34,925 nucleotides of DNA from assembly GCA_024698805.1 (NCBI GenBank), contig JAILQT010000036.1, forward strand, positions 1 to 34,925. Reading direction: 5' to 3'. Shown piece after piece: positions 6,842-28,814 of the stretch (position 1 is the first letter of the stretch; every line of letters starts with the position of its first letter). The notes below the pieces were generated by a model. That model was not told the origin of the DNA, did not search any database, and worked only from the letters and a program-made list of their open reading frames with translations. This stretch comes from Solobacterium sp. (GTDB lineage: Bacteria > Bacillota_I > Bacilli_A > Erysipelotrichales > Erysipelotrichaceae). Made by a program: the position numbers and the translations under genes.

Positions 6842-7570
6842 ATGGGTAATAACAATATTGTCAGGTATCTTGATGAGCAGCGTACATATACAAGGAAGGA
6901 ACTGTATACCGTTTTTCGTGATGCGGCAGAGGGGTATTCGTATAACAGGTTCAGCTGGGATCTCGGACTTCTGCTGTCGGCAGGCAAAATCCACAGGATC
7001 GGCCGGAACGCCTATCGGGCCGGTCCGTCAGCGAAGAAGATATATCAGCCGCGGTATTCGGCGAAACTGATGCAAACAGCTGAATTCATGGAAAGGGAAT
7101 ACGCCGATGCAGAGTATTCATTGTTTGAGACTGTCATGCTGAATGAATTTCTCAATCATCAGATCGCAAACAATACTCTTTATATCAGTGCAGAGAAAGA
7201 CTTCAGTGAGTTTGTTTTCAGGAGTATTCAGGGAAATATCCCGGGTATGGTTCTTTACAGACCGGGGAAGGATGATCTGAGGAAGTACTGGGAGCCGGGC
7301 TGTATCATAATCATTGACCGTATCAGCGAAGCGCCTCAGGGGATCAATCATTATGACACGCCGCTGGAAAAAATGTTTGTGGATATCCTGGCAGATCCTT
7401 CACTGCTGTATATGTACAGTAAAAGCGAGTATGCAGAGATGCTGCGGACTGCAAACGATAAATATCATATCGATTACAGAAAAATGCTCCGATATGCCGG
7501 AAGGCGCGGAAAAAGAACGGAAATAAAGGCGCTGATTGAAGAAAGGGGAATCGGTTCTGATCATACCTGA
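6842..7570 (+). CDS. AbiEi-like winged-helix antitoxin/repressor (DUF6577-like)
   Basis: 242 residues. The N-terminal 65 residues (VRYLDEQRTYTRKELYTVF, WDLGLLLSAGKIHRIGRNAYRAG) look like a winged helix, and the rest (SLFETVMLNEFLNHQIANNTLYISAEKD, TPLEKMFVDILADPSLL) resembles the core of AbiEi-type antitoxins paired with nucleotidyltransferases. By analogy it would neutralise the downstream toxin and repress the operon through the repeats at 6747-6812. The coding region is visibly richer in A+T than its neighbours, which fits horizontal gain. Only a weak ribosome site (TTTGGTGA) precedes the ATG. Family assignment is from memory of AbiE pairs and the partner gene. Confidence 0.7.
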   Translation: MGNNNIVRYLDEQRTYTRKELYTVFRDAAEGYSYNRFSWDLGLLLSAGKIHRIGRNAYRAGPSAKKIYQPRYSAKLMQTAEFMEREYADAEYSLFETVMLNEFLNHQIANNTLYISAEKDFSEFVFRSIQGNIPGMVLYRPGKDDLRKYWEPGCIIIIDRISEAPQGINHYDTPLEKMFVDILADPSLLYMYSKSEYAEMLRTANDKYHIDYRKMLRYAGRRGKRTEIKALIEERGIGSDHT

Positions 7571-8668
7571 GAATTATTCACTTGAACACATCGACTGGAT
7601 CGCCGGTAATTTCAGCAGTGACAGGTTTATCGCGGAAAGGGCGATGTATGCATTTGGACTGCTGGAAGCTGTAAGCAGGACAGGACTGAAGTTTATATTT
7701 AAGGGCGGAAGTTGTCTTATGCTTCTGCTGGACAGACCGAAGCGATTATCCACGGACATTGATATCATTGTTGATCCGGGAACAGATATTGATGCGTATT
7801 TAAAAAGAGCAGCGGGAATGTTTCCTTTCACAGATTATGAAGAAAGCATACGGCCTGTTCACGGGAATATCGTAAAAAGACATTTCCGGTTCTTTTATCA
7901 GTCTCCCGTCATGGATGACAGAATAACGATCCTTTTGGACGTACTGTATGAATATGACGGATATCCTTCCGTAATCGAAAAGCCAATAGAGGGTGATCTG
8001 CTTCTGACTGTAATGAACCGGTCTATGTCAGAATGCCTGATGTCAATTGTATTCTTGGAGATAAGCTCACTGCTTTTTCACCGCATACAACAGGTATACC
8101 GTTACTGGCCGGCAAAGAGATGGAGATTATCAAACAATTCTTTGACTGCTCAGTCTTGTTCCGGGAAATGAATGATTTCAATACTGTTAAGAAAGCGTTC
8201 ATTTCCGCAGTGATTTGCGAAATAGGATACAGAGATCTGAAGATCACACCTCAGGATGTTCTTGAAGATATTATGGAAAGCTGTATATGCATAATCGGCA
8301 ATGGCAGGATCAATACTCCGGAATATGAGTTCTACAGCTCCGGTGCAGACCGGATCCGCGGGCATCTGTTTGAGACTGGCCTCAACAGGAATAAAATTGC
8401 ATACAGTGCCTGTGAATTACTGTATCTTTGTGCATGTATCTGCAGGGACACGGATCATTGCGATAATACTATGAAAGCATCTGGTATAATACCTGCGATC
8501 GGTAATACAAAGGTGTCAAAGGCTGTCAGTTATATCCGAAAGGCAGATAAGACAGCAGGATTGTATCTGAAAGAGGCAGTTTCATTACTGGGGGATGATT
8601 TTGAGCGTCTGCAGAAACATGCACAGGACCGTCCCCTGGAACTGTATTCATTGTCTGATCGGAAATGA
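7536..8668 (+). pseudogene. AbiEii-like nucleotidyltransferase toxin, frameshifted
   Basis: The first part (from TTG 7536, overlapping the antitoxin gene by 35 bases) contains FKGGSCLMLLLDRPKRLSTDIDIIVD, the G-S-x(n)-T-D-x-D motif of AbiEii/MNT nucleotidyltransferases. That frame then runs into unrelated sequence, while another frame continues the family pattern: NEPVYVRMPDVNCILGDKLTAFSPHTTGIP and MEIIKQFFDCSVLF, then a helical C-terminal half to 8668. The switch falls at about 8009-8014 (ACTGTAATGAA); one missing base, such as an A from GTAAAT, explains it. The catalytic half remains. It is either a decayed gene or a sequencing/assembly slip. The start is also unclear: GAAAGGGG at 7542-7548 precedes IIPENY, where relatives often begin with Met, but no ATG is there. 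Confidence 0.75.
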
Positions 8669-21025: not shown

Positions 21026-21033
21026 GTATTTAA

Positions 21034-21060
21034 GGTGGATCGGATGATCCATCTTTTTTT
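21034..21060 (+). terminator. Strong intrinsic terminator after the XRE membrane protein
   Basis: GGTGGATC (21034-21041) pairs with GATCCATC (21046-21053), with one G-T wobble, around GGAT; seven T follow. Confidence 0.85.
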
Positions 21061-21127: not shown

Positions 21128-21634
21128 ATGTTCAAGATCCTTTTAAACAATTTGATCGGACTGGACGGGGTCATTATCATCCTGGCTTTTGTCAACGGGT
21201 ACATCCTGTATCTGTGCAAAAAGAATGCGGACAGTGTATATGATCACTTCAATAAAAAAGACTATACAGCCAATCTGACGGATGAGCAGAAAGAAGCTTT
21301 CATGACAGAACATGCTGCGGAGGATACGCTTACGCCGCAGGACCTTCTGAAATACAGGGAAAAGACCAACCGTCTTTATGCGCTGTTTACAAACTTTACA
21401 TCTGTTTTTCCGCTTCTGGGTATGTTCGGAACAGTCATCTCGCTGCTCAGGATGGGTGAACTGATCGGTTCCGAGGTGCAGGGCGCATTCTTTACGGCGC
21501 TGACATCCACATTCTGGGGCATCTTTGCGGCAATCATTTTCAAGATGCTCGATTCTGCTGTATCCTACAGGATCGACGACAACGAAAAACATCTGGAATA
21601 CCTGTTCAATCCGAAAAAGGGTGAGATATCATGA
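21128..21634 (+). CDS. MotA/TolQ/ExbB-like proton-channel protein
   Basis: 168 residues, shorter than typical ExbB. One membrane helix at about 10-30, a cytosolic stretch (31-85, with a helical charged region), then two helices: FTSVFPLLGMFGTVISLLRM and ALTSTFWGIFAAIIFKML. The P-L-L-G-x-x-G-T-V motif and the A-L-x-S/T-T-x-x-G helix are the defining features of the ExbB/TolQ/MotA superfamily, which forms a pentameric ion channel around paired ExbD/TolR/MotB helices. The next gene overlaps by ATGA and encodes an ExbD-like partner. Such motors drive TonB or Tol in Gram-negatives; there is no sign of an outer membrane here, so the load is unknown. Confidence 0.85.
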   Translation: MFKILLNNLIGLDGVIIILAFVNGYILYLCKKNADSVYDHFNKKDYTANLTDEQKEAFMTEHAAEDTLTPQDLLKYREKTNRLYALFTNFTSVFPLLGMFGTVISLLRMGELIGSEVQGAFFTALTSTFWGIFAAIIFKMLDSAVSYRIDDNEKHLEYLFNPKKGEIS

Positions 21635-22188
21635 GGAAAAAGGATATCGTCCTGGATTTCACATCCCTGCTGGATGTGATCATGATCCTGCTGTTCATCG
21701 TCATCTCCAATACGGCGACCGCATCCGCGAAAGTCAGCGAAGAAGCACAGCAGACAAAAGACGACCTTGCCGCCGCCGAAGCAGAGATCTCCGACCTGGA
21801 ATACCGCCTGCAGGCAAAAGAAGCCGCGGAAGAGAGCTATGCGATCTATACATCCGAAGCTGTCATCGTCACGATGTTCAATTCCGAAAAAGACGATGCG
21901 CATATCCTGACAGTCTTCACCGGTGAAGACAGCGAAGATGCCGTGACGATCACCATGGGGGAAAACAGCACGCTGAATACGAAAAACAGGATCCGGTCCT
22001 ATATCGGGGAGATCCTGAACAGTACCGAAGGCCAGCCTGTCTACATCGTATTCCGCTATGACAAATATACGATCTACCGCTCGGAATTCGAAGCGGTCCG
22101 GGAAGAACTCGGCAGACTGAGCCGGGAGCACAAGGAAGTATTTTTCAAGGAGAAGGATCTCGCTGAAGATCCGGAAGGGAAGGAATAA
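21631..22188 (+). CDS. ExbD/TolR-like membrane protein
   Basis: 185 residues. The N-terminal helix VLDFTSLLDVIMILLFIVIS has an aspartate (Asp15) in the position of the proton-carrying Asp of ExbD and TolR (their motif is P-L-x-D-V-x-x-x-L-L). A predicted coiled coil (about 33-70, alternating Glu/Ala/Lys) joins it to an extracytoplasmic domain ending VYIVFRYDKYTIYRSEFEAVREELGRL, which resembles the last strand and helix of the ExbD fold. The coiled coil is not usual in ExbD and recalls a stretched or plugging linker. It is coupled to the ExbB-like gene (ATGA). Confidence 0.78.
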   Translation: MRKKDIVLDFTSLLDVIMILLFIVISNTATASAKVSEEAQQTKDDLAAAEAEISDLEYRLQAKEAAEESYAIYTSEAVIVTMFNSEKDDAHILTVFTGEDSEDAVTITMGENSTLNTKNRIRSYIGEILNSTEGQPVYIVFRYDKYTIYRSEFEAVREELGRLSREHKEVFFKEKDLAEDPEGKE

Positions 22189-22191
22189 CAT

Positions 22192-22587
22192 ATGGCAAAT
22201 GAAAAGACAACACCTCAGAAAAATCATACAGTGAGGAATGTCGGCATCGCCGCAGTGCTGATTGCCCTGCTCGGAGGCGGATACGGATACGGTACCGGCA
22301 TGTTCGGCACCGGTGACGGCGTCATGCCGGGCAGCAGCCAGGCAGAAGTCGAACCGCAGGAAGGCCAGACCGAAGAGATACCGGATACGATCATCATCCG
22401 CATCGAAGAGGATGAAGTGACTGTCAACGGCACTGTCTGCAAAGACGCCGCAGAGTTGAAGGCCTATCTGGAAAAGGTGCTGACGGATGACAGGATCTTC
22501 GTTCTGGAAGATGAAAAAGCCATTCTCGCAAGCTATGAATGGGTAGAGGATACCTGTAAGGAACTCGGGATCGATCTTAAGAAATAA
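22192..22587 (+). CDS. Single-pass membrane protein with ExbD/TolR-like outer domain
   Basis: 131 residues, starting three bases after the ExbD-like gene stops. One glycine-rich membrane helix at about 14-36 lacks an aspartate, so it cannot replace the channel-lining helix. A Pro/Glu linker (45-62) leads to IIIRIEEDEVTVNGTVCKDAAELKAYLEKVL...RIFVLEDEKAILASYEWVEDTCKELGI. Its strand-strand-helix-strand-helix order and V-N-G...E-L...L pattern match the periplasmic domain of ExbD/TolR. The likely role is a third, load-contacting subunit of the motor. Function is inferred from position and this resemblance only. Confidence 0.7.
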   Translation: MANEKTTPQKNHTVRNVGIAAVLIALLGGGYGYGTGMFGTGDGVMPGSSQAEVEPQEGQTEEIPDTIIIRIEEDEVTVNGTVCKDAAELKAYLEKVLTDDRIFVLEDEKAILASYEWVEDTCKELGIDLKK

Positions 22588-23516: not shown

Positions 23517-23550
23517 AAAAGCTTTCGGCTGTTTTACCGAAAGCTTTTCT
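23517..23550. terminator. Bidirectional terminator between convergent genes
   Basis: AAAAGCTTTCGG (23517-23528) pairs perfectly with CCGAAAGCTTTT (23537-23548). The flanking A and T runs let it act for the phosphoesterase on the plus strand and the kinase on the minus strand. Confidence 0.85.
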
Positions 23551-25010
23551 TAACCGTTCACAAGCAGGAAGATCCTCTCTGTTTCCTCCAGATAATTCTG
23601 ATAGAAATCACAGTGATCCGGGATCGGCGTAAATACGTAGGGGACAGATTCTTTCCTTACGGCGGCGAAAGCCTCGTACAGGCTGTCATAGATCCCCAGG
23701 TGCACGGCAGCGTTCATGAACGCGCCGATCGCTGTTGCCTGCGTATCTGAATAGCGCAGGAGCTTTTTGCCTGTCATGTCCGCAAGGATCTGGTCGAAGA
23801 AATCACACTTCGTCATCCCGCCGCCGATGTAGACCGTATCTGCTTCCCTGACCTTTTTCGGCATTGCCAGGATACTTTTGGCGATCTCCGCGGCGATGCC
23901 CTCATACATGGCACGCGCGAGATCCGCCCTTGTATTGCCCAGTGAGATATTGGAGAAGCTTGCCCTTGCCTCATTATTCCAGTGACGCGTGCCGCATCCC
24001 TGGAAGAGGGGGACGCAGAGCACGCCGTTCGCGCCGATCGGGGAGGAGGCGGCGATGTCGTTGAATGTATCGAAATCGATCTGGCCCCTGTGCCATTCAT
24101 CGGGGAAGATCTCCCGGATGAGCCAGTTCAGCGCTGCAGCCGATGCGAGTACGTTGGATTCGACCGTATATTTGCCCGGTACGGCGGATATATTGCATAT
24201 CATCGTGGAGTTTGTGAGTTCAGGTTCATCGGATAGGGAAAGGATGAAGGATCCGGTGCCGCAGTTGATCACCAGGGAGCTGTCATCCAGCTGTCCGAGA
24301 CCCAGTGCGGAATTCTGCTGGTCGCCGCCGGACGTGATCACAGGGATGCCCTGCGGAATACCGCTCTCCCTGGCGAACGAAGTGGTCGTCCTGCCCGCTA
24401 TACCGGGCTGGATGATATCCGGGAGCTTGTCTTCATCGATATTGAACAGCTCCAGCATCCTCTTATCCCATCTGCATGTCTTCAGATCCATGAGGTTTGA
24501 GCGGCTGCCGTAGGTAGCGTCTGTCGTCCATGTCCCGCACATATAGTTAAGGAGGTAATCCGGGACGATCAGGGCTTTGTATGCTCTGTCATATATATCC
24601 CGCATGTTTTCCTTCATCCAGGTCAGTTTTGAACCGGTGAATACGGTGTTGACGGATGAACCTGTCGTCGTGTAGATCTCGCCGTTATGCGGGGTCAGGC
24701 TGCTGCAGATCGCTGTATTCCTGGTGTCCTGCCACATGATGAAATTGGCGAGCGCTTTGCCGGAGGCATCGCACAGCGTCGGTACGGAACGCAGTGATGT
24801 CAGCGATATGGCATCGATATCCCCGAACCTCTGTATGTGGTCGCAGATATCCAGAAGCCCGTTCACGTAGACCCGGGGATCCTGTTCGATCCATCCGTTT
24901 TTATGGATCAGCGGTGTAAGGATGCTTTTGATCCCCTTGATGGAACCGGTATCTGAAAAAAGGATGCCGCGCATGCTGGTAGTGCCGATATCTATGCATA
25001 ATATGTTCAT
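23550..25010 (-). CDS. FGGY-family carbohydrate kinase
   Basis: 486 residues, the normal family length. The phosphate-1 loop CIDIGTTSMRG opens the protein; WIEQDP, MWQDTRN, TSGGDQQNSALGLGQ (catalytic Asp in the G-x-x-D region), INCGTGSF, and the C-terminal IGGGMTKCDFFDQILADMTGKKLLRYSDTQATAIGAF (adenosine motif) complete the fold. It phosphorylates a sugar, polyol or related acid with ATP. Start: ATG 25010, seven bases after GAGGT; ATG 25016 would touch the ribosome site. It is divergent from ulaG-ulaE-ulaF, so an L-xylulose/L-ribulose-like pentulose or a lactone/aldonate is a reasonable guess for its substrate. Confidence 0.9.
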   Translation of the reverse strand: MNILCIDIGTTSMRGILFSDTGSIKGIKSILTPLIHKNGWIEQDPRVYVNGLLDICDHIQRFGDIDAISLTSLRSVPTLCDASGKALANFIMWQDTRNTAICSSLTPHNGEIYTTTGSSVNTVFTGSKLTWMKENMRDIYDRAYKALIVPDYLLNYMCGTWTTDATYGSRSNLMDLKTCRWDKRMLELFNIDEDKLPDIIQPGIAGRTTTSFARESGIPQGIPVITSGGDQQNSALGLGQLDDSSLVINCGTGSFILSLSDEPELTNSTMICNISAVPGKYTVESNVLASAAALNWLIREIFPDEWHRGQIDFDTFNDIAASSPIGANGVLCVPLFQGCGTRHWNNEARASFSNISLGNTRADLARAMYEGIAAEIAKSILAMPKKVREADTVYIGGGMTKCDFFDQILADMTGKKLLRYSDTQATAIGAFMNAAVHLGIYDSLYEAFAAVRKESVPYVFTPIPDHCDFYQNYLEETERIFLLVNG

Positions 25011-25067
25011 GGTCATGACCTCATCAAAGAAAATGTACCATGAGCATACGTAAAATGAAAGTATCGT

Positions 25068-25096
25068 TTGACAAGCCGGGTAAGAACCGATAGGGT
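25068..25096 (+). promoter_or_regulatory. Sigma-A promoter of the ula-like operon
   Basis: TTGACA (25068-25073), a 17-base spacer and TAGGGT (25091-25096) form a clear promoter; GGAGG (25120-25124) and the ATG at 25131 follow. On the other strand TTTCAT and TACATT, 17 bases apart, are a possible kinase promoter. The 120-base gap between the two genes therefore carries divergent promoters. Confidence 0.65.
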
Positions 25097-25130
25097 TAAG
25101 ACAGAACAGTTAGAAATACGGAGGATAATT

Positions 25131-26234
25131 ATGAGTTTGATCGATACAATCACCAGGGAGTCGTGGATCAAAAAGACGTTCCCCGAATGGGGCACATGGC
25201 TTGTCGAGGAGATCGAGGAGAAACAGGTCCCCAAAGGCAATGTCTCGATGTGGTGGCTGGGATGCGTAGGCATCTGGCTGAAGACAGAGAACGATACGAA
25301 CATCACCGTTGATCTGTGGACAGGCAACGGCAAGCGTACACACGGCAACGGCAAGATGGCTGTCGGCCATCAGATGGCAAACATGTCCGGTGCGAGGATG
25401 ATGCAGCCGAACCTCAGGAACGTCCCGTTCGTGATCGACCCGTTCGCATTCAAGAAGGTCGACGCTGTACTGGCAACGCATTATCATCATGACCATATGA
25501 GCGAGGAATGGGCTGCGCATGTCATCCATTCCGGCATGACGACAGTTGACGATGAAGGAAACGAGATCCCCGTACCGTTCATCGGACCGAAGAAATCCGT
25601 TGAACTGTGGGTCAGCTGGGGCGTTCCCGAAGACAGGTGCAGGGTCGTCAAGCCCGGCGATGTGATCAAATTCAAGGATCTGGAGATCGTCTGCCTCGAA
25701 TCGTTCGACAGGACATGCCTCGTTACGACCGATTCAACAGGACCCGACCGTGAAGAGCTTTGGGGCAAGTGCCCGGATGACATGGATGACAAGGCTGTCA
25801 ACTATCTCATCAAGACACCCGGCGGCAATATCTATCACTCCGGCGATTCGCATTTCTCCATCTATTTCGCAAAACACGGGAAAGACTACGATATCGACGT
25901 CGCTTTCGGCGCGTTCGGCGAGAACCCGGTCGGCATCCAGGACAAGATGACATCCGTTGATATCCTGCGTATGGCGGAGAGCCTCCGCTGCAAGGTCGTC
26001 ATCCCCATCCACCATGACATCTGGGCGAACTTCCAGGCGGACACGGAAGAGATCCGTCTGCTGTATGATTTCAAGAAACCGAGGAACAACTACCGGTTCC
26101 GTCCTTTCTTCTGGCAGGTCGGCGGCCAGTATACATATCCGCAGGACAAGGACATCATGTATTACCACCATCCGCGCGGCTTTGACGACTGTTTCGAAAA
26201 CGAGCAGAACGTACCGTTCCGTTCGATCCTGTAA
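25131..26234 (+). CDS. ulaG: L-ascorbate-6-phosphate lactonase, UlaG-type
   Basis: 367 residues, closely matching UlaG as I remember it throughout: [19 protein letters not shown] is mirrored by [19 protein letters not shown], and [51 protein letters not shown] and [19 protein letters not shown] all agree. The metallo-beta-lactamase-fold metal site THYHHDHMS and later His/Asp ligands (SGDSH, PIHHDIW) are present. UlaG opens the lactone ring of L-ascorbate 6-phosphate in the cytosol. It carries one insertion against E. coli UlaG around [18 protein letters not shown]. No ulaABC transporter adjoins it. Confidence 0.92.
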
Positions 26235-26245
26235 GGTGCGGCGCG

Positions 26246-27103
26246 ATGAGACCGTACTTGCTCGGGATATACGAGAAGGCAATGCCTTCCTTCCTGACAT
26301 GGAAGGAAAAAATGATCTGCGCGAAGGAAGCCGGATTCGATTATATCGAGATCAGCATCGACGAAACGGATGACAAGCTCTCCCGTCTGGAATGGACAGA
26401 ACAGGAAAGAAGCGAATTCATTGACCTGATGCGCGGGATGCAGATGCCGGTGCGCTCCATCTGTCTGAGCGGGCACAGGAAATACCCGTTCGGATCGCAT
26501 GATGAAAGCGTGCGCGCAAGATCCATGGAGATCATGGAAAAGGCAGTCGTGTTTGCGCATGACCTCGGCATCCGGACGATCCAGCTTGCCGGATACGATG
26601 TCTATTATGAGGAAGGCGACGAACAGACGCGCGCCATGTTCCTGGAGAACCTGAAAAAAGCGGCGGGCATCGCTGCGGTATACGGCATCGTGCTCGGCTT
26701 TGAGACGATGGAGACCGACTTCATGAACACGGTCGCTAAAGCCATGGCATATGTGAAGAAAGTCGATTCACCGTACCTGCATGTGTACCCGGATCTCGGG
26801 AATATCACCAATGCATGCCTGCAGGCCGGAACGTCCGTAACGGATGATCTGGAAACAGGCAGGGGGCATCTGGTCGCCATGCATCTGAAGGAGACCGTAC
26901 CGGGCGTGTTCCGCGAAGTGCCGTTCGGAAGCGGCCATGTGGACTTTGAGGCAGGCATAAACAAGGCATGGGAGCTCGGTGTCCGGCGCTACCTGACGGA
27001 GTTCTGGTATACAGGCGAGGAAAACTGGAAAGAGATCGTCAAAGACGCGAATGACAGGATGCGCCTCATCCTGGACAGGGTCAGCGGAGGAGAGACATGC
27101 TGA
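26246..27103 (+). CDS. ulaE: L-ribulose-5-phosphate (L-xylulose-5-phosphate) 3-epimerase, UlaE-type
   Basis: 285 residues, a TIM barrel of the xylose-isomerase-like superfamily. LLGIYEKAMPSFLTWKEKMICAKEAGFDYIEISIDETDDKLSRLEW is nearly diagnostic of UlaE/SgbU, as are ICLSGHRKYPFGSHD, GFETMETDFMNT (metal Glu), YPDLGNITN (Asp) and VPFGSGHVDF. It converts L-xylulose 5-phosphate to L-ribulose 5-phosphate. It starts 11 bases after ulaG and overlaps the next gene by seven bases, so it is in the same operon. Confidence 0.94.
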   Translation: MRPYLLGIYEKAMPSFLTWKEKMICAKEAGFDYIEISIDETDDKLSRLEWTEQERSEFIDLMRGMQMPVRSICLSGHRKYPFGSHDESVRARSMEIMEKAVVFAHDLGIRTIQLAGYDVYYEEGDEQTRAMFLENLKKAAGIAAVYGIVLGFETMETDFMNTVAKAMAYVKKVDSPYLHVYPDLGNITNACLQAGTSVTDDLETGRGHLVAMHLKETVPGVFREVPFGSGHVDFEAGINKAWELGVRRYLTEFWYTGEENWKEIVKDANDRMRLILDRVSGGETC

Positions 27104-28125
27104 AATGCAGGAAAAAAGTGATCGGGCATCTGAACAAATGCTACTCACTGGCAGAATATGACGAAGACGGCAGACGGTATATGCTGTGTGCCGCAGAGAA
27201 AGAAGATCCCTGTTATCAGTTTGACAGGGAAGGAAACCGGACAGGCGTCATGTGGGAAGGCCCCGGGGGCGTCATGTCGATGGAACAGTACAATGACGTG
27301 CTGCTGGCTACGTGGAAGTTCTATTCGCCGAACAATTCCGCGGAAGCGAAGATCGTCTATTACACAAAGGGTGAAGACGGTTATGACTGCCATGTCCTGT
27401 GCGACCTCCCGTTCGTACACCGGTTCGGCATTATTTCCGCAGAAGGAAGGAGCTGGCTGGTCGCCTGCACGCTGAAGTCGGCGCATGCATTCAAGGATGA
27501 CTGGACATGCCCGGGCAGGATCTGGGCTGCAGAGCTTCCGGAAGACCTGAAGGTGTTCTCCGCAGAAAACCAGCTGGTCATGAAGCCGCTGGTCAGCGGC
27601 CTGTACAGGAACCACGGCTTCGTGAAAGTTACGGAAGACGGCAGGACATTCGCGCTGGTTGGCACTGAGAACGGCATCTACCGGGTCGATCCGCCTGCGG
27701 GCGGTGATGATCCCGTATGTGAAAAGATCCTGGACGCGCCGGCAAGCGATATGCTGTATACGGATCTCGACGGCGACGGGGAAAGGGAACTCTTTGTCCT
27801 GTCACCGTTCCACGGCGATACTGTCAGCATTTTCAAAAACGGTGAAGAGGTTTACCGCTATCCCGAAAAGCTTCCTTTCCTGCATGCGATCACGGAAGTG
27901 AAGACCGGTGAAAAGACCTATGCCGTAACAGGGAACCGGCAGGGCAGCAGGGATCTGCTCGCATTCAGCTGGGATCCTCAAACGAAGACCTACACATATG
28001 ACCTGCTGGACCGGGGTGCCGGCGCAGCGAACTGCTATTTTTACAGGGAAGGGGACAAAGACCTTCTCATGGCTGCCAACAGGGAAACAGACGAGATCGC
28101 TCTCTATGAGCTTTGGGAGGAATGA
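27097..28125 (+). CDS. Beta-propeller-like protein of unknown function inside the ula operon
   Basis: 342 residues, ATG 27097 with GGAGGAG just before. No signal peptide or membrane segment, so it is cytosolic. Repeated short strands (for example [109 protein letters not shown]) recur every 45-55 residues, suggesting a six- or seven-bladed propeller. [15 protein letters not shown] has the D-x-D-x-D-G calcium loop of FG-GAP/VCBS repeats. I do not recognise the family. Its place between ulaE and ulaF, overlapping both, argues for a part in the pathway, either as enzyme (a lactonase or isomerase-like propeller) or as sensor; this is inference. Confidence 0.75.
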
Positions 28126-28814
28126 TGCTTGAAGAACTGAAACAGAAAGTATACGAAGCGAACATGCTGCTGCCGAAGTACGGACTTGTCGTCTTTACCT
28201 GGGGCAATGTATCCGGCATCGACAGGGAGAAGAACCTGATGGTCATCAAGCCTTCAGGCGTGGAATACGATGTCATGAAACCGGAAGACATGGTCGTCGT
28301 CGATATCGCCACAGGCGAAAAGGTCGAAGGGAAGCTCAAGCCTTCTTCCGACACGGATACGCATCTTGTCCTTTACAGGAATTTCAAAAACATCGGCGGT
28401 ATCGTCCATACGCACAGCGAATGGGCTGTATCGTTCGCGCAGGCGGGTATGGGCATCCCGGCAATGGGTACGACGCACGGCGACTATTTCTACGGGGAGA
28501 TCCCGTGCACGAGGAAGATGACGCCGGAAGAGATCGCCGGTTCCTATGAACTGGAGACAGGCAATGTCATCGTCGAGACGTTCAAAGATATCGACCCGGA
28601 CATGGTGCCAGGCGTGCTGGTCAACAGTCACGGACCCTTCACATGGGGGACGGACCCGTTCAACGCTGTGCACAATTCCGTCGTTCTCGAAAAGGTCGCC
28701 TTCATGGATCTGCATGCAATGATGCTGAATCCCAAGGCAGGACCCATGCAGCAGGAACTGCTGGACAAGCATTTCCTCAGGAAACACGGACCGAACGCAT
28801 ATTACGGACAGTGA
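28125..28814 (+). CDS. ulaF: L-ribulose-5-phosphate 4-epimerase, UlaF/AraD-type
   Basis: 229 residues. Start ATG 28125, four bases after GGGAGG; ATG 28122 is equally in frame and overlaps the upstream stop. [44 protein letters not shown] is the family opening; metal histidines lie in IVHTHSEWA and the later [24 protein letters not shown] and the C-terminal [15 protein letters not shown] match UlaF and AraD closely. It converts L-ribulose 5-phosphate to D-xylulose 5-phosphate, which enters the pentose phosphate pathway. The closeness to UlaF rather than AraD is judged mainly from the operon. Confidence 0.94.

Follow-up and report, generated by a model that had tools for sequence, protein, structure and literature searches.

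Among the described motors that resemble the locus reported here, AglRQS, the gliding motor of Myxococcus, offers a precedent for its make-up, since one TolQ-like and two TolR-like proteins are encoded together, as far as the available text of two papers goes (PMC3169522, PMC9389320). In the same excerpts AglQ and AglS, both of them PF02472 proteins, are each described as bearing the Asp, whereas in our locus one of the two partner proteins alone does so (PMC3169522, PMC9389320). Agl also differs in operating in a diderm and together with additional Glt proteins. A channel gene followed by one or more ExbD-type proteins is likewise the arrangement of the ExbB-ExbD-TonB and ExbB-ExbD1-ExbD2 systems; ExbD1/ExbD2 pairs feature in the published literature, and plasmids of Variovorax and Aquabacterium carry ExbD genes annotated one after the other. 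Conserved Pro, Gly and Thr core positions of MotA/TolQ/ExbB channels have a role in ion passage. Zorya systems, whose ZorAB proteins are of the same broad channel class, combine a ZorA with a long tail and a ZorB with ZorC/D or ZorE.

A 2022 review of 5:2 motors states, in its available part, that some Gram-positives have annotated ExbB-family proteins and that whether and how these work in the absence of ExbD is still to be tested (PMC9389320). According to the accessible text of another paper, complete and incomplete Ton systems are found now and then in monoderms, probably without function, an argument against a wide role (PMC12204202). Non-flagellar A subunits bear varied extra domains and B subunits are difficult to detect from sequence, as a further partly available source has it (PMC12505986); excerpts of one more paper were also consulted (PMC4646322). 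No description of a trio such as the present one was found in the literature searched, a search that had most subscription journals and preprints outside its scope.

The locus consists of three head-to-tail genes on the + strand at 21128-22587 of the window, by which we mean the whole 34,925-nucleotide stretch analysed (Solobacterium sp., contig JAILQT010000036.1 of assembly GCA_024698805.1; Table 1). Its coordinates and reading frames were confirmed exactly. Between genes 1 and 2 there is a 4-base overlap (ATGA), between genes 2 and 3 a gap of 3 bases, and a metallophosphoesterase-family gene begins 50 bases downstream of the trio. Terminator-like sites number six in the 2 kb region, against 1.8 expected in shuffles. 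We read the three genes as probably encoding an ion-driven ring-and-shaft motor that acts outward on the wall or surface of a monoderm, and that is AglRQS/Tol-like rather than Zorya-like. The channel family match and the homology of the Asp helix both support the ExbB/ExbD-type motor proposed in the initial annotation.

Table 1. Features of the three-gene locus and its upstream border, in window positions.
Feature	Position	Strand	Remarks
Gene 1, minimal channel assigned to the MotA/TolQ/ExbB family	21128..21634	+	168 aa, three hydrophobic segments; PF01618
Gene 2, ExbD/TolR-type Asp15 helix, heptad stretch and conserved outer domain	21631..22188	+	185 aa; hhalign, shuffles, four-copy alignment
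Gene 3, acid-free helix, Gly-rich linker and outer domain, the last weakly ExbD/TolR-like	22192..22587	+	131 aa
Terminator-like hairpin, lying past the upstream HTH gene and before the trio	21032..21055	+	10 pairs, then a T run

Gene 1, first described as an ExbB/TolQ-like channel, is confirmed by sequence comparison as a minimal channel of the MotA/TolQ/ExbB family. It scores well over the curated Pfam cut-off of PF01618 (40.5 bits against 22.9; E 2.7e-10), and its four-row profile has a MotA chain as best match in the PDB (8gqy, E 6.3e-6), with PomA and TolQ chains also found at E about 0.001-0.002. When gene 1 and the G026 copy (genomes of relatives are given G numbers) are aligned with E. 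coli TolQ and E. coli ExbB, 13 columns are invariant. These include P95, G98, G101, T102, A124, L125, T128 and G131, of which all except A124 and L125 are core Pro/Gly/Thr residues of the last two helices that gene 1 has in common with the E. coli proteins. About 65 residues separate the first and second hydrophobic segments, and there is no long tail. Scanning the window's own genome with PF01618 yielded no channel besides gene 1.

The first 30 residues of gene 2 align with the ExbD/TolR helix, with Asp15 in register, when compared by hhalign with the 15-sequence ExbD/TolR alignment used as target for genes 2 and 3, from which a sixteenth sequence, L045, had been left out because of a wrong reading frame. 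The score of 32.3 compares with 19.3 for the best of 100 column shuffles and 20.2 for the reversed control. Tested as single sequences, the four copies that hold the helix behaved similarly: for the window, G026 and G065 copies none of 100 shuffles came up to the observed score, and for G032 four did. These alignments confirm the Asp15 helix, which the initial annotation had called ExbD-like, as being of ExbD/TolR type. Against Pfam ExbD (PF02472) the protein remains under the cut-off (12 bits against 25.4; E 0.23), and in the PDB its profile meets TolR chains over the helix stretch at E 0.5-0.9, ranked behind unrelated chains. A heptad stretch follows the helix in all four copies that hold this region, in keeping with the added coiled coil noted earlier, on a simple count without control. 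Beyond it lies an outer part of about 110 conserved residues, with PVYIVF in all four aligned copies. This outer domain is conserved but not clearly ExbD-like, its profile score of 15.0 against ExbD/TolR being reached by one of 100 shuffles, and 15 to 46 of 100 shuffles doing as well when single sequences are used.

Gene 3 has a helix without acidic residue in all six copies, as had been read from the window copy for the Asp, and the Asp-bearing N-terminal helix typical of ExbD/TolR is accordingly not found in it. Searches of Pfam, NCBIfam and PADLOC, taken up to E 1, gave nothing for the protein, and Cys83 is identical in the six aligned copies. The outer domain can be aligned to that of ExbD/TolR along 55 columns at a score of 16.9, which none of 100 shuffles reached, though the probability is 4.7% and the reversed control comes to 14.6; with the six copies taken as single sequences, between 0 and 7 of 100 shuffles equal the observed score. 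We treat the weakly suggested ExbD/TolR-like character of this domain, claimed at the outset, as a lead and not as proof. The profiles of genes 2 and 3 do not match each other (probability 1%). A division of the Asp helix and the TolR-like outer domain between two proteins, the feature first singled out as unusual, fits the sequence tests, but the ExbD likeness of the gene 3 domain is weak and gene 2 itself possesses a conserved outer domain, so the 'split' may be a matter of 'two different shaft proteins'. It is conceivable, though doubtful, that the trio is a self-contained monoderm motor with the ion helix and a wall-directed ExbD-like domain on two proteins, as a heteromeric shaft or with a separate force transducer.

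A gene 2-type Asp helix also occurs outside the trio. The genome G010 matches the gene 2 profile at E 6e-8 through a 348-aa protein (L033 634-1680, G010:C100) that has such a helix and an unlike outer part. Residues 15-61 of this protein match PF02472 at E 0.0015 and 19 bits, again under the 25.4 cut-off, and nothing in Pfam rises above its cut-off for the remainder. The contig ends about 130 bases upstream of the Asp-helix gene, cutting off that side, and no channel gene was found elsewhere in G010. The same helix on an unlike outer part suggests that it may be a module powering different extracytoplasmic devices.

The distribution of the trio is narrow. Gene 1 was found in four of 149 relatives and in four of 315 genomes of the order, all of one genus, and genes 2 and 3 in the same six of 70 genus genomes (the window genome, G032, G026, G065, G016 and G066), so that the trio serves no core function of the genus. 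Seven genus genomes matched each of genes 2 and 3, and one was set aside in each case: G010, left out of the six as carrying another protein with the same helix, and G046, a partial gene 3 match (E 7e-4) inside a 625-aa frame. Relatives were searched mainly within the phylum; the one scan reaching further, of genome contigs with short peptide patterns of gene 1, found a single locus, so absence elsewhere is not implied. PF01618 matched only three of 295 genomes of the sampled phylum, making such a motor rare there. The other two matches, in G426 and G474, adjoin genes that look F1-ATPase-like by eye, and visual inspection of the listed frames showed neither a gene 2 nor a gene 3; they were dropped as unrelated. 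The gene 3 profile matched five of 392 phylum genomes, four of these matches being dropped as weak (E 0.0015 to 0.006) and part-length.

The full trio, in the same order and with tight spacing, is present in four genomes (window, G032, G026 and G065), so the conservation in other genomes on which the initial annotation had made its reading depend does exist. The G032 versions of genes 1, 2 and 3 are 63, 50 and 53% identical to those of the window, the G026 and G065 versions 28-36%, and the four-copy alignments retain 32, 36 and 31 invariant columns in genes 1, 2 and 3 despite identities of about 30%. Between G026 and G065, dN/dS is 0.095, 0.069 and 0.112 for the three genes, against 0.045-0.114 for their neighbours; between the window and G032 it is 0.13-0.18, with dS near saturation. 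The trio is under purifying selection. The G016 and G066 contigs begin inside gene 2, and gene 1 was not found elsewhere in either genome. Carrier assemblies are fragmented (146 to 380 contigs). Three of the six carrier contigs (G032:C49, G016:C15 and G066:C25) end inside the trio, the chance of at least three in six being about 0.04 with rounded contig counts; such breaks possibly reflect differences between strains or a repeated sequence there.

The six carriers show five genomic contexts, G026 and G065 being syntenic and the other four each different. No constant fourth gene occurs in the visible flanks, three of which (G032, G016 and G066) lack the upstream side. Neighbours cross-match between contexts only as weak large-family hits of 22-37% identity, by our reading MATE-type transporters and iron alcohol dehydrogenases, and as a distant HTH pair. 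With no constant neighbour, the cassette looks self-contained. Past some genes downstream of the trio, G026 and G065 have transglutaminase-like and T2SSF genes, G026 also T2SSE, and such a surface-machine cluster lies near the trio in only these two of six carriers. In G026 the transglutaminase-like, T2SSF and T2SSE genes (L016 12869-17623) form a pilus or competence-type cluster, with a short gene and one of the sodium-symporter family lying between it and the trio.

Carriage of the trio by mobile elements was considered and rejected: plasmids searched by tblastn with genes 1 and 2, and phages searched with gene 1, yielded nothing, and profiles of all three genes found no relative on viral contigs. 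We likewise rejected a compositionally foreign origin, the trio's distance of 0.261 lying within the range of window slices (0.205 to 0.431). A misbinned contig was dismissed on the best matches (76-77%), inside the genus, of a window gene that we take to be RarA-like, and on the G+C content of six other contigs of the genome (0.49-0.55 against 0.53).

The organism seems to lack an outer membrane, i.e. to be a monoderm, as first supposed. Omp85 was found in none of 70 genus genomes (control positive in seven of 14 known genomes), TonB_C (PF03544) was not found in the window's own genome, which is about 91% complete (control positive in three of 14), and the OmpA/MotB domain (PF00691) was found in none of the six carriers (control positive in five of 14). 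The initial remark that neither TonB nor a MotB peptidoglycan-binding motif adjoins the trio is in line with this for the genomes covered, and none of these searches points to a diderm lineage. PF02472 also found nothing in the window's own genome, about 91% complete, though the profile misses gene 2 as well, so that a divergent ExbD could escape it.

Membership of the Ton, Tol-Pal, flagellar-stator and Zorya systems was tried and failed in each case. The trio differs from ExbB-ExbD systems in having no TonB_C in its own genome and no outer-membrane marker in the genus, a gene 3 without Asp, and genes 2 and 3 that both fall short of the Pfam ExbD cut-off; a place in a Ton system was rejected on the absence of PF03544. 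The PDB profile searches with genes 1 and 2 do bring up TolQ and TolR chains, TolR only at E 0.5-0.9, but the six carriers gave no OmpA-domain match and hence no Pal-like protein, and with Omp85 in 0/70 genus genomes a Tol-Pal assignment was discarded. Gene 1 resembles the MotAB/PomAB stator in its best PDB match, yet it is much shorter (168 aa), and a MotB-type anchor or flagellar stator was rejected on the PF00691 result. As to Zorya, PADLOC matched ZorA to gene 1 alone (E 0.034), with no ZorB match; the long ZorA tail has no counterpart in gene 1, and no ZorC, ZorD or ZorE, and so none of the adjoining effectors whose lack had been remarked on, stood among the scanned neighbours.

How the parts might work together can be sketched from their families. 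As a small membrane motor driven by ions and belonging to the MotAB/ExbBD/TolQR class, the trio would act outside the cytoplasmic membrane. Gene 1 would make the channel ring, probably a pentamer as in its family, and gene 2 the shaft, whose Asp15 helix would carry the ion inside the ring and whose heptad stretch may pair two copies and pass motion outward. Gene 3 may be a second outer subunit, its acid-free helix docked on or in the ring and its flexible Gly-rich linker and putative ExbD/TolR-like domain holding or pulling a partner in the cell wall or at the surface. The output is taken to lie outside, as in AglRQS, Tol and Ton, and not to be an inward signal of the Zorya kind, because gene 1 lacks an extended cytoplasmic region. 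Against this reading stand the weak similarity of the gene 3 domain, the rarity of the trio and the presence of a nearby surface-machine cluster in only two of six carriers.

A defence or envelope-sensing device, in which disturbance of the wall or membrane, for example by phage entry, would open the trio's own ion channel with no separate effector, resembles the trigger suggested as one option in the initial annotation. Patchy presence (6/70), strong divergence and varying context are typical of accessory systems and would suit it, as would the sub-threshold ZorA match of gene 1. We nevertheless consider it unlikely, and less supported than when it was raised, with gene 1 leaving no room for a long tail, genes 2 and 3 unmatched in PADLOC, no Zorya effector among the scanned neighbours, and nothing found for genes 1 and 2 in plasmids, for gene 1 in phages or for any of the three on viral contigs. 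A different arrangement would be a heteromeric shaft, with one helix from gene 2 and one from gene 3 in the ring, the product being either a motor with one Asp or a simple gated channel for ions. In all six carriers gene 3 stands beside gene 2 with its single helix and its weakly ExbD-like domain retained, and AglQ/AglS leave the same question of homo- or heterodimer open in the available text (PMC9389320); its helix, however, has neither the ExbD helix motif (by eye) nor an acid, and the heptad stretch, suited to a homodimer, is confined to gene 2, which makes this arrangement improbable to us.

That the trio is a decaying, non-functional remnant of a Ton/Tol system acquired from diderms would fit the occasional incomplete Ton systems of monoderms including Bacilli, called likely non-functional in the available part of the source (PMC12204202). 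Frames are intact in all copies not cut by contig ends, however, dN/dS is as low as 0.07-0.11, and the invariant columns persist through divergence to about 30% identity; the selection test already disfavours decay, and we give this explanation very little credence. Under the outward-acting motor that we prefer, the trio supplies a monoderm example in which a channel goes with an Asp-helix partner and a third protein that is conserved, and its small size would allow expression and testing. As a natural variant it asks whether such a motor needs its Asp and its wall-directed domain on one shaft.

Elsewhere in the window, a DUF6577 gene followed by an AbiEii-type nucleotidyltransferase gene (6842-8171) forms an AbiE-like toxin-antitoxin pair, which sits in the window's most deviant tetranucleotide stretch. 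Downstream of the trio, genes for an FGGY kinase, a metallo-beta-lactamase-fold protein, a xylose isomerase-like TIM barrel and a class II aldolase (23550-28814) presumably belong to an ascorbate or pentulose (Ula-type) pathway.
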